From contig NZ_MBSS01000012.1 in assembly GCF_001695855.1 (NCBI RefSeq), forward strand, positions 434,001 through 498,000: a DNA stretch of 64,000 nt, read 5' to 3'. A program made the translations under genes and the position numbers. Every line of letters starts with the position of its first letter. Position 1 is the first letter of the stretch. The stretch is from Ensifer sp. LC163. GTDB lineage: Bacteria > Pseudomonadota > Alphaproteobacteria > Rhizobiales > Rhizobiaceae. Below the pieces are notes generated by a model, which did not search any database, was not told the origin of the DNA, and saw only the letters and a program-made list of their open reading frames with translations. Of this stretch, positions 8,305 through 10,179 are shown one piece after another.

Positions 8305-8718
8305 ATGTATTCCATCGGCGATCTCTCCCGCCGCACGGGCGTAAAAATTCCGACGATCCGCTATTACGAGCAGATGGGGCTGATTGCCGCTCCTGAACGC
8401 TCGGAAGGCAACCAGCGGCGCTACGAGAAGCCCGAACTCGAACGTCTCGCCTTCATCCGCCATGCGCGCGATCTGGGACTTTCGATCGAATCGATCCGCG
8501 ATCTGCTGGCACTGAGCCGGCATCCGGAGCGCCCCTGCGGCGAAGCGGACCGCATCGCCAAGGAACATCTGATCACCGTACGCGAAAAAATCGCCCAGCT
8601 GCAAAAGCTGGAGCGCGAACTTGAGCGCATCGTCGCCTGCAACGGCGACCACACGATCGGCGACTGCTACGTCATCCGTGCGCTTGCAGACCATTCGATG
8701 TGCGGCGGCGACCATTGA
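8305..8718 (+). CDS. MerR family metal-responsive-type regulator
   Basis: A 137-residue MerR protein with an N-terminal winged helix (MYSIGDLSRRTGVKIPTIRY), a dimerisation helix and a metal-loop-like C-terminus. Cysteines lie at 78, 112 and 121, with another at 133. Cys at position 78/79 is typical of divalent-metal sensors (ZntR, PbrR) while CueR-type Cu(I) sensors have Ser there, and the Cys112-X8-Cys121 spacing matches the lead/zinc/cadmium type best. Metal specificity is therefore inferred as divalent. No efflux ATPase or metallothionein is adjacent, so its target is probably elsewhere. Confidence 0.85.
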   Translation: MYSIGDLSRRTGVKIPTIRYYEQMGLIAAPERSEGNQRRYEKPELERLAFIRHARDLGLSIESIRDLLALSRHPERPCGEADRIAKEHLITVREKIAQLQKLERELERIVACNGDHTIGDCYVIRALADHSMCGGDH

Positions 8719-8794
8719 GCGCTGCGGCGGCAGACTGGAGCCGACTTCGAACAGAGGTCGCCACCCCTGCCCCCAGCCCTGCGCAAAATCCCGG

Positions 8795-8933
8795 TTGACA
8801 AAAATTCGGAAACGGACAATCTACGCACATGATCAAGAACGCACCCATCTGCCGCGCGTATTTTTGGCTGTTCCCATAGGAGCGGCCTGCTGATCATATT
8901 CAACAAGGCCGCCATCAGGCGGCTTTTGTTTTT
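8795..8933 (+). promoter_or_regulatory. putative ribosome-mediated transcription attenuator
   Basis: A TTGACA -35 element (8795-8800) and a weak -10 near 8817-8822 place transcription start at about 8829, the first base of a 16-codon leader. Three pairings compete: segment 1 GCCGC (8851-8855) with segment 2 GCGGC (8882-8886); segment 2 GCGGCCT (8882-8888) with segment 3 AGGCCGC (8906-8912); and segment 3 with segment 4 as a terminator (8905-8913 with 8918-8926, ATCA loop, then a T-rich tract to 8933). A ribosome stalled on the Tyr-Phe-Trp codons would leave segment 2 free and favour read-through into the GNAT gene. Confidence 0.7.
8829..8879 (+). CDS. attenuator leader peptide, 16 aa
   Basis: ATG at 8829 and TAG at 8877-8879 encode MIKNAPICRAYFWLFP. 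Five of the last six residues are Tyr, Phe, Trp, Leu and Phe, followed by Pro directly before the stop. No Shine-Dalgarno precedes it; with the promoter spacing this suggests a leaderless mRNA, as is known for the trpL leader of Sinorhizobium meliloti. It is too short to recognise by homology, and its support comes from position and the hairpins around it. Confidence 0.6.
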   Translation: MIKNAPICRAYFWLFP

Positions 8934-8972
8934 CACGGCACCTGATGGCGAAAGAACCATGAGGAGCCGACA

Positions 8973-9476
8973 ATGCTACAGACCGCCATCCCCCCTCTCC
9001 ATCCGCTGCCATCGACGCGCCCGCCGATGGTGACGATCCGCTGCGCCAAGCAGCGTGACCTTCCCGAGCTGCGCGAAATGATCGCCGAACTCGCCGCCCA
9101 TCACGGCGACGCTGCCCCGATCACCCCCGAGCAGCTCGAGCGCGACCTCTTCGGCCGGAGCCCCTGGATCACGGCGCTTGTCGCCGAGGCCGGCAACCGG
9201 CTGATCGGATACGCGATCCTCGTCCCGGCCTACCGGGCAGCGGAAGGCGCCCGCGGCATGGAATTGCACCACCTCTTCGTGCGTCCCGACAACCGCGGCA
9301 CCGGCATCGGCCGACACCTCGTCGCCAAGGCCCGCGAACAGGCAAAAATGGCCGGTTGCGATTACCTCTCGGTCAGCGCCGCGACCGGCAATTTCAAGGC
9401 GCACGACTTCTACGAATCCGAGCGTTTCGTACCTCGCCCCGTGACGGGCATGCGCTATATGCAGAAACTTGGCTGA
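8973..9476 (+). CDS. GNAT family N-acetyltransferase
   Basis: A 167-residue acetyl-CoA-dependent acetyltransferase. The fold motifs are visible: the N-terminal strand-helix TIRCAKQRDLPELREM after residue 20, the acetyl-CoA pyrophosphate loop in LFVRPDNRGTGIGRHLV near residues 105-120, and the C-terminal N-x-x-A-x-x-F-Y-E block (GNFKAHDFYESERFV). The ATG at 8973 has GAGGAG upstream; an internal ATG at 9027 has none and would remove an unusual proline-rich 18-residue N-terminus. It is the first gene after the attenuator and is 10 bases from the DJ-1/PfpI gene. The acetyl acceptor is unknown. Confidence 0.88.
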   Translation: MLQTAIPPLHPLPSTRPPMVTIRCAKQRDLPELREMIAELAAHHGDAAPITPEQLERDLFGRSPWITALVAEAGNRLIGYAILVPAYRAAEGARGMELHHLFVRPDNRGTGIGRHLVAKAREQAKMAGCDYLSVSAATGNFKAHDFYESERFVPRPVTGMRYMQKLG

Positions 9477-9486
9477 GGATGAGGCG

Positions 9487-10068
9487 ATGCGGCTTGCAAT
9501 CGTGCTTCACGAAGGGTTTGCGGATTGGGAATGCGCGCTGTTGATGGCGGCGGCGCGCACTCACCTCGGCGTCGATATCGACGTCGCCACCTTGGACGGC
9601 GCGCCGGTGACGTCGATGGGCGGCCTCGACGTCTCCGCGCATCTGTCGATCGACGCGCTCGACCCTGCGGGCTTCGACGGCCTGGTGATCTGTGGCGGTG
9701 CGATCTGGGGAACCGCCGACGCCCCCAACCTCTCCGCCACGATCCGTTCCTTTCATCGGCAGGAACGGCTGGTCGCCGCAATCTGCGGCGGCGTCGATGC
9801 ACTGGCATCGAGCGGAATTCTCGACGCCACCGATCACACCGGAAACAGTGCGGACAGCCTTGCGTCGCTCGCTGGCTATCGCGGCCACGGCCATTATCGC
9901 GATCAGCCGCAGGCTCTTAGCCGCGACCACATTGTCACGGCCGCCGGCACGGCACCGGTCACCTTTGCGGTCGAGATCTTTCGCGCCCTCGGCCTCGGCT
10001 CGCCTGAACTCGACGGCTATGCCGCGCTCTATGGCCGCGAGCATGCGGCCGTCACGACGGCCGCATGA
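9487..10068 (+). CDS. DJ-1/PfpI family protein
   Basis: A 193-residue protein of the DJ-1/PfpI (class I glutamine amidotransferase-like) fold, whose members include glyoxalases, chaperones and deglycases. The nucleophile-elbow Cys is in AAICGGVDALA near residue 100, and the acidic partner is Glu in GFADWE near residue 16. The ATG at 9487 follows GAGGATGAGG and lies 10 bases after the GNAT stop, so the two genes form an operon that the upstream attenuator would control. The exact reaction cannot be assigned. Confidence 0.85.
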   Translation: MRLAIVLHEGFADWECALLMAAARTHLGVDIDVATLDGAPVTSMGGLDVSAHLSIDALDPAGFDGLVICGGAIWGTADAPNLSATIRSFHRQERLVAAICGGVDALASSGILDATDHTGNSADSLASLAGYRGHGHYRDQPQALSRDHIVTAAGTAPVTFAVEIFRALGLGSPELDGYAALYGREHAAVTTAA

Positions 10069-10077
10069 GCAAACCAC

Positions 10078-10179
10078 TGCATAATTCCTTAAATCGGAAT
10101 CGATTTAAGGACAAAATTATGCAGCGACTCAAAGTGTTACAGCGACCTTTGCGCGTCCAAATAGACGCGCGGCGCTGTA
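10078..10179 (+). repeat. two-module palindromic repeat, copy 2
   Basis: Module A at 10078-10123 and module B at 10138-10179, same orientation as copy 1. The right B arm is the short form ending CGGCGCTGTA. It sits between the 3' end of the DJ-1/PfpI gene and the 3' end of the di-haem cytochrome gene on the other strand. Confidence 0.85.

Follow-up and report, generated by a model that had tools for sequence, protein, structure and literature searches.

A putative leaderless attenuator with aromatic control codons upstream of a GNAT acetyltransferase gene in Ensifer and other Rhizobiaceae

Upstream of a GNAT acetyltransferase gene in the window, i.e., the whole 64,000-nt stretch of Ensifer sp. 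LC163 DNA analysed here, lies a short aromatic leader frame which we read as a leaderless, trpL-type, ribosome-mediated attenuator that would respond to aromatic tRNA charging and control the acetyltransferase gene at two levels, with a probability of roughly 0.55 for this full statement. Attenuation by tRNA charging alone, without a second lock, is quite likely; the confidence in the full statement is lower because it includes that second lock. Conservation, folding with the ribosome at set positions and the related leaders all give good support to ribosome-mediated attenuation with aromatic control codons, and the aromatic tRNA-charging reading first made from the sequence alone is strengthened by the same evidence, including the codon-matched leaders before tyrS, trpS and DAHP synthase genes. 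The GNAT gene appears to be an unusual but not accidental target, and the element appears larger, and its family wider, than first seen.

A definite candidate signal, the charging state of aromatic tRNAs, is thereby assigned to a widely kept, uncharacterised acetyltransferase, and since the leader is also found in genomes of the tractable species S. meliloti and A. tumefaciens, the function of this GNAT becomes testable. If the double lock is true, a single stalled ribosome would govern the following gene at the level of transcription and of translation alike. In addition, the related leaders point to a family of aromatic attenuators among Alphaproteobacteria.

The leader frame and its conservation

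The putative leaderless leader ORF (8829–8879, forward strand) encodes MIKNAPICRAYFWLFP in 16 codons, with its ATG at 8829–8831, a TAG stop at 8877–8879 and the control codons TAT TTT TGG at 8859–8867 on the same strand, so that the 16-codon frame with aromatic residues is present as it had been described. It is preceded by a promoter-like sequence (8795–8823, forward strand) comprising TTGACA (8795–8800), a 17-nt spacer and AATCTA (8818–8823). Inspection of the sequence places the leader ATG five bases 3′ of the −10 AATCTA, and the TTGACA/AATCTA spacing would put the transcription start at or near that ATG, which is also where transcription would begin in the proposed mechanism. Of the TTGACA promoter claimed in the sequence-only reading, the TTGACA itself holds, with TTGAC found 34–39 nt 5′ of the leader ATG in 107/107 relatives, whereas a strict sigma-70 scan called no promoter at 8795–8823, the −10 AATCTA being poor. 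A Shine–Dalgarno (SD) motif (AGGA, GGAG, AAGG or GAGG) occurs 5′ of the leader ATG in 0/107 relatives and 5′ of the GNAT start in 106/107. The leader ATG lacking such a motif, together with the conserved TTGAC spacing, fits a leaderless leader.

A GNAT orthologue at E ≤ 1e-25 was found in 101 of 394 genomes and in 23 of 109 genera of Rhizobiaceae. The orthologue set comprises 109 genomes, 108 of which were read (G347 was left out), and in every one of the 108 a short ORF with an aromatic cluster at its end lies upstream of the gene, with 107 of these leaders fitting one tight pattern. The most distant orthologue, L116 (43% identity), has the leader MIKRLPTLCWFYYANLP. An aromatic leader is likewise present in 80/80 named loci (the best 80 of 173, with species overlapping those of the 108), among which the GNAT has its closest named relatives in Ensifer adhaerens and its kin; the leaders of S. 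meliloti 4H41 and A. tumefaciens MEJ076 are MIKNAPISSVYFWLFR and MINARALISCTYFWAFL, respectively. Within the genus, the region 8829–8935 is nearly identical in all 16 genomes, all of which have the GNAT gene.

The frame, the stop and Tyr-Phe are kept in the relatives while the remaining leader codons vary. Phe is invariant and always encoded by TTT in the 107 aligned leaders, Tyr and Trp are each present in 106, and Tyr, Phe and Trp occur together in 105, while the other codons drift (pairs within a genus add up to 477 non-synonymous and 263 synonymous single differences). The constancy of TTT is unusual because this codon accounts for only 125 of the 485 Phe codons in the 31 long ORFs of the window; the need for an unpaired U-run could be an alternative cause of it. 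The comparison across Rhizobiaceae that the sequence-only reading had proposed thus finds the aromatic leader residues conserved, and the 1:2, loop:5 and 5:6 pairings described below track between genera.

Ribosome position and the choice of pairings

The local RNA fold was compared with shuffles, giving z = −4.24 with 0/200 shuffles equally good. In the predicted fold, the 5′ arm of a helix termed P1, ATGATCA (8829–8835, forward strand, as are all segments below), pairs with TGATCAT (8891–8897). Segment 1, GGCTGTTCC (8866–8874), lies within the Trp-Leu-Phe codons and has as its partner segment 2, GGAGCGGCCT (8879–8888), which forms either 1:2 or, with a ribosome on Tyr, Phe or Trp, the 2:3 antiterminator. 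Segment 3 (8902–8913) is the 5′ arm of the terminator, and its AGGCCGC (8906–8912) pairs alternatively with segment 2, whereas segment 4 with the T-tract (8918–8933) is the 3′ arm, the T-tract lying inside 8924–8933. The geometry is as previously described, i.e., the GCGGCCT antiterminator segment begins at 8882, three bases past the leader stop. The terminator stem in the window is GCCGCC/GGCGGC followed by the T-tract, and TTT lies no more than 12 nt from the stem in 100/107 sequences, being absent from L083 and from six of the seven sequences of genus g81.

In the proposed mechanism, the signal would be how far aromatic tRNAs are charged, foremost those for Phe and Tyr but also that for Trp. 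With these tRNAs charged, the ribosome would reach the stop and cover segment 2, leading to 3:4 and termination near 8933. With Tyr-, Phe- or Trp-tRNA in short supply, the ribosome would wait on the respective codons and cover segment 1, leading to 2:3 and read-through.

The folding with a ribosome at defined positions was calculated with segment 4 not yet made, and segment 3 was counted as paired with any upstream partner at P > 0.5. With a footprint of 13 nt, segment 3 is paired upstream in 103/103 distinct sequences when the A site lies between one codon before Tyr and four codons after it, versus 0/103 when the ribosome is at the stop, which agrees with the earlier claim of mutually exclusive pairings. 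A footprint of 10 nt shifts the pairing window by one codon, with 2/103 sequences exceeding 0.5 at the stop, and a footprint of 16 nt again gives 0/103. Antiterminator pairing is still predicted in 85–88% of sequences with the ribosome 2–6 codons before Tyr (footprint 13 nt), and segment 3 pairs upstream in 52% of sequences (mean 0.58) with no ribosome. Because an upstream ribosome gives the pairing too, the sharp change comes as the ribosome moves from the aromatic codons to the stop, not on the 5′ side. The predicted switch is seen in 98/103 real sequences, compared with 47/515 after shuffling of the 26–32 nt between the leader stop and the terminator.

Switching by equilibrium alone is insufficient, since equilibrium folding prefers the terminator wherever the ribosome stands (means 0.85–0.96 on the aromatic codons, medians ≥ 0.97; the window's own terminator probability drops to 0.55 on Phe) and leaves the GNAT SD paired in both states. 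As equilibrium folding yields no switch, we infer that both switches would have to be kinetic, with the order of synthesis, and hence of folding, being decisive.

Each segment was also paired with its own partner and, for comparison, with the partners of other genera (107 sequences, 22 genera), and the resulting p values are approximate because the genera are not independent. The own partner is the stronger one for 1:2 in 19/22 genera (p = 2.5e-4), for P1 weakly so in 14/22 (p = 0.046), and for 2:3, which has little informative variation, not significantly (12/22 genera, p = 0.23). Pairs were also counted formally in a subset of 27 of the 107 sequences. With P1, 1:2 and 3:4 taken together, 85.6% of cells are paired (84.1% when shuffled, 36–61% when slid), with 8 pairs changed on both sides versus 4.1 in the shuffled set, three of these in P1, and with pair types not in excess (18 vs. 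17.9 shuffled); for 2:3, 81.2% of cells are paired (22–70% when slid), with two-sided pair changes not in excess (2 vs. 2.0).

Pairings past the terminator and a possible second lock

The sequence-only reading had described three pairings, all of which are present, but this count understates the element in that two further pairings past the terminator reach the GNAT SD. Segment 5, CGGCACCTGATGGC (8936–8949, forward strand), is complementary both to the terminator loop and the start of segment 4 (8912–8919), its partner in the proposed ON state, and to segment 6 (8957–8969, forward strand), the GNAT SD region, whose AGGAG (8962–8966) it would mask in the OFF state. Thus, OFF would consist of 1:2, 3:4 and 5:6, where 5:6 would mask the SD of transcripts leaking past an intact terminator, and ON would consist of 2:3 and 4:5, where segment 5, once 2:3 has formed, would pair with the freed loop and segment 4 and be kept off segment 6, so that the SD may be released for translation.

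These pairings also admit a simpler account, in which transcription is indeed attenuated while the pairings past the terminator form an SD hairpin that is always closed and lowers translation, with no second switch; we consider this account rather unlikely, though the better placed of the alternatives. It is in line with the prediction of 5:6 in most genera. In the partner comparison, the own partner for 5:6 is stronger in 16/22 genera with wide windows (p = 0.021) and in 19/22 with SD-anchored windows (p = 0.0016). Pairing of the SD core covers 0.79 of positions vs. 0.58 with the upstream part shuffled, at a mean energy z of −2.3 (92 distinct sequences); the letters of the SD hairpin differ widely between genera, and in the representatives of g70 and g92 its energy is no better than that of shuffles. 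The simpler account is equally in line with equilibrium folding of the whole leader, in which the SD is unpaired at 0.27 in the modelled ON state vs. 0.22 in OFF (ON above OFF in 57/100); because the SD stays hidden in both equilibrium states, the second lock needs kinetic folding. However, an always-closed hairpin is at odds with the behaviour of segment 5, whose pairing with its own terminator loop is stronger than with the loops of other genera in 21/22 genera (p = 2.4e-6; 17/22 and p = 0.005 with narrower windows). With segment 3 forced upstream and the SD not yet made, loop:5 forms at P > 0.5 in 98/100 sequences, with a mean of 0.94 vs. 0.37 when segment 5 is shuffled. In genus g81 (L098, L100–L102, L105, L107 and L108), no T-run directly follows the stem, while the leader and the SD hairpin are kept, a sequence pattern which hints at translational control alone.

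Related leaders, known systems and the controlled gene

A first covariance model, made from the Rhizobiaceae leaders, was searched against 397 genomes of the order and matched 67 at E ≤ 0.01, many of the weak matches looking like chance. The nine strongest matches are all from Rhizobiaceae and all lie 5′ of GNAT genes. Next in rank are tandem-Tyr leaders, found before tyrS in L206, L208 and L213 (by Pfam; L207 and L214, near copies of these loci, were left out of the scan) and before prephenate-dehydrogenase-like genes in L209, L210, L211 and L221 (PDH_N above cut-off). The 30 first-model loci include the nine GNAT loci and 16 that were inspected (L220, L222, L223, L225, L226 and rows without a locus were left out); L212, L215–L218 and L224 were discarded on visual inspection because they are ends of longer frames or lack an aromatic pair. 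A weak match in L219 (1501–1608, reverse strand; E 7.4e-4) precedes a gene with an isochorismatase domain, its leader being MIDRVLRTATRYWRFL.

A second model, built from seven related leaders and ten GNAT leaders, was searched against 385 genomes of the class and matched 16 at E ≤ 1e-4, among them the window and L221, both of which are in the model. It found a VYFARLP leader before tyrS (L276), a YY leader before prephenate dehydrogenase (L280), an IWW leader before trpS (L284, 1501–1609, reverse strand), a YFWYFSY leader before DAHP synthase (L287, 1501–1632, reverse strand), WYF leaders before five distantly related GNATs (L275, L277, L278, L281 and L282) and aromatic leaders before small ORFs with open frames of 113–123 codons (L279, L285, L286 and L288); L283 is a match without an ATG leader. 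The frames of L213, L280, L287 and L288 fit more poorly, being longer (21–26 codons) and, in L280, starting with GTG. The tyrS leaders of L206, L208, L213 and L276, from other alphaproteobacterial families, have a GCCGCC/GGCGGC-type terminator. Nineteen related loci were checked for their SD, of which L209, L211 and L279 have no scorable start; in most of the 16 scorable ones the predicted fold masks the SD, as judged by eye and with no control.

Two side observations concern these loci. The tyrS attenuators of L206 (1501–1609), L208 (1501–1611), L213 (1501–1623, reverse strand) and L276 (1501–1609) have a similar start-codon helix. The small genes of L279, L285, L286 and L288 resemble by eye the C-terminal S4 part of TyrRS; the Pfam S4 cut-off is passed by L285 only, L286 is weak, and L279 and L288 are without a supporting match.

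A profile of the window GNAT scores the five distant GNATs (29.9–39.7 bits) no better than the genomes' own paralogues (28.9–67.8 bits), and orthology is therefore rejected. Judging from these sequences, aromatic attenuators seem to have acquired acetyltransferase genes as targets on more than one occasion.

The related leaders mostly match codon to gene, which favours aromatic tRNA charging over drug stalling, and this match, though imperfect, is the best argument for tRNA-charging control. Drug stalling would mean that the leader is an arrest peptide, on which a drug or small molecule stalls the ribosome near Tyr-Phe-Trp-Leu-Phe and thereby induces a GNAT that detoxifies the compound. GNAT enzymes can indeed modify antibiotics, and the fold neighbours of this one include aminoglycoside acetyltransferases; Tyr-Phe is nearly constant, and a stall anywhere on the aromatic codons would switch the RNA as well. 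Yet, a drug sensor leaves the codon-matched leaders (YY before tyrS, WW before trpS) unexplained, and the C-terminal residues vary: Trp directly follows Tyr-Phe in 90/107 leaders and directly precedes it in 16, Leu is exchanged for Ala, Gly or Ser in 32, and the last residue is R in 55, L in 25, P in 16, S in 7 and Q in 4. We therefore regard an arrest peptide as improbable, and the specific arrest at Trp-Leu-Phe-Pro-stop suggested in the sequence-only reading is disfavoured by the same variation.

Within Rhizobiaceae no aromatic regulon is shown, since the tyrS (22) and PF02153 (18) genes examined lack a similar leader. No element-like aromatic leader was found before tyrS in 22 Rhizobiaceae genomes (330 nt upstream), the short ORFs with an aromatic pair in L230 and L234 being unlike the element, and PF02153 genes in 20 genomes, 18 of them Rhizobiaceae, showed no similar leader within 500 nt, the single ORF seen, in L268, being unlike the element. 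The best other full-length match of the second model in the window's own genome is weak (L290, E 0.129) and has the leader MTSARNISIWWWAR, recognisable from its sequence as a putative trpL. Its terminator, GCCGCC...GGCGGC, is like that of the element, whereas past the terminator a predicted SD hairpin is found in the element only, being absent from the single trp leader that was folded.

No Rfam family came near its gathering score, either at gathering threshold over the whole window or at E up to 5 over 8700–9000; the best scores for the element were those of isrK (17 bits, 50 needed) and Phe_leader RF01859 (16.5 bits, 55 needed). The E. coli pheA leader (RF01859) encodes a Phe-rich leader peptide and follows a terminator/antiterminator logic, both of which resemble the element, whereas the element has mixed aromatic codons, a putatively leaderless frame and another target gene. 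The Bacillus subtilis trp leader combines termination with an SD-blocking hairpin in the read-through RNA, as is proposed here, but it is run by the TRAP protein instead of a translating ribosome.

The closest parallel in layout is S. meliloti trpLE(G). There, trpL is reported to be leaderless and the attenuator products rnTrpL and peTrpL to act in trans (PMC7298713, PMC10117765). Both systems have a leader whose transcript begins with the ATG (putatively so in the element), aromatic control codons in tandem and a choice between antiterminator and terminator; they differ in that trpLE(G) has Trp-Trp-Trp and the anthranilate synthase gene trpE(G), whereas the element has Tyr-Phe-Trp and a GNAT gene. 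The uORFC-8-2 motif before cysS of Rhodobacterales is a ribosome-mediated attenuator with tandem matched Cys codons and thus parallels the tyrS and trpS leaders as an alphaproteobacterial attenuator with matched tandem codons before a tRNA-synthetase gene; it differs in having Cys codons and cysS, and the section on this motif mentions no SD lock (PMC8632094). Among the literature matches listed, we found no report of this GNAT leader or of an aromatic attenuator family in Alphaproteobacteria. It is improbable that the main product acts in trans, i.e., that the leader peptide and the RNA released at the terminator hit other targets like rnTrpL and peTrpL (which would be compatible with cis attenuation): the leaderless-type layout is like that of the trp attenuator, S. 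meliloti offers a precedent (PMC7298713) and P1 could stabilise a released RNA, but the leader peptide drifts everywhere except at its aromatic codons, and the nine strong Rhizobiaceae model matches all lie before GNAT genes, which points to a cis role.

The GNAT gene proposed to be regulated (8973–9476, forward strand) encodes a protein that, by structure comparison, is close in fold to SSAT1 and SSAT2 (thialysine N-acetyltransferase, PDB 2bei), with many other GNATs within 3 Z units; SSAT1 and SSAT2 are human enzymes, unlike this rhizobial GNAT. A link of the GNAT to aromatic metabolism was looked for and none was found, and PADLOC gave no match for the GNAT or the DJ-1 gene at E ≤ 0.001. 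Its role is perhaps to N-acetylate an amine or a compound resembling an amino acid, useful when aromatic supply or aminoacylation fails. More tentatively, a six-segment double-lock attenuator may recur across Alphaproteobacteria with its codons tuned to the gene, and GNATs, separately recruited, would serve in a response to failing aromatic aminoacylation. In such a cascade, one stalled ribosome would drive 2:3 and then 4:5, both sparing the transcript and freeing the SD; YY would serve tyrS and prephenate dehydrogenase, WW trpS, and Y-F-W DAHP synthase and the acetyltransferases, whose task might be, for example, to detoxify aromatic amino-acid analogues or synthetase inhibitors around plant roots.

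The controlled unit had been described as an acetyltransferase together with a DJ-1/PfpI protein, of which the GNAT stands while the DJ-1/PfpI-family gene (9487–10068, forward strand; PF01965, E 5.5e-25) is an optional second gene rather than a constant part. By tblastn, a DJ-1 homologue lies downstream of the GNAT in at least 55/107 relatives, a lower bound since only 0.6–3.5 kb past the start of the GNAT match were covered. A MerR-family regulator gene (8305–8718) lies upstream of the leader on the same strand, CadR/CueR-like but under the NCBIfam cut-offs, and a homologue of it is nearby in 64/107 relatives. Just past the DJ-1 gene, an A+T-rich inverted repeat, CCTTAAATCG / CGATTTAAGG (10080–10121), is perhaps a terminator, as judged by eye.
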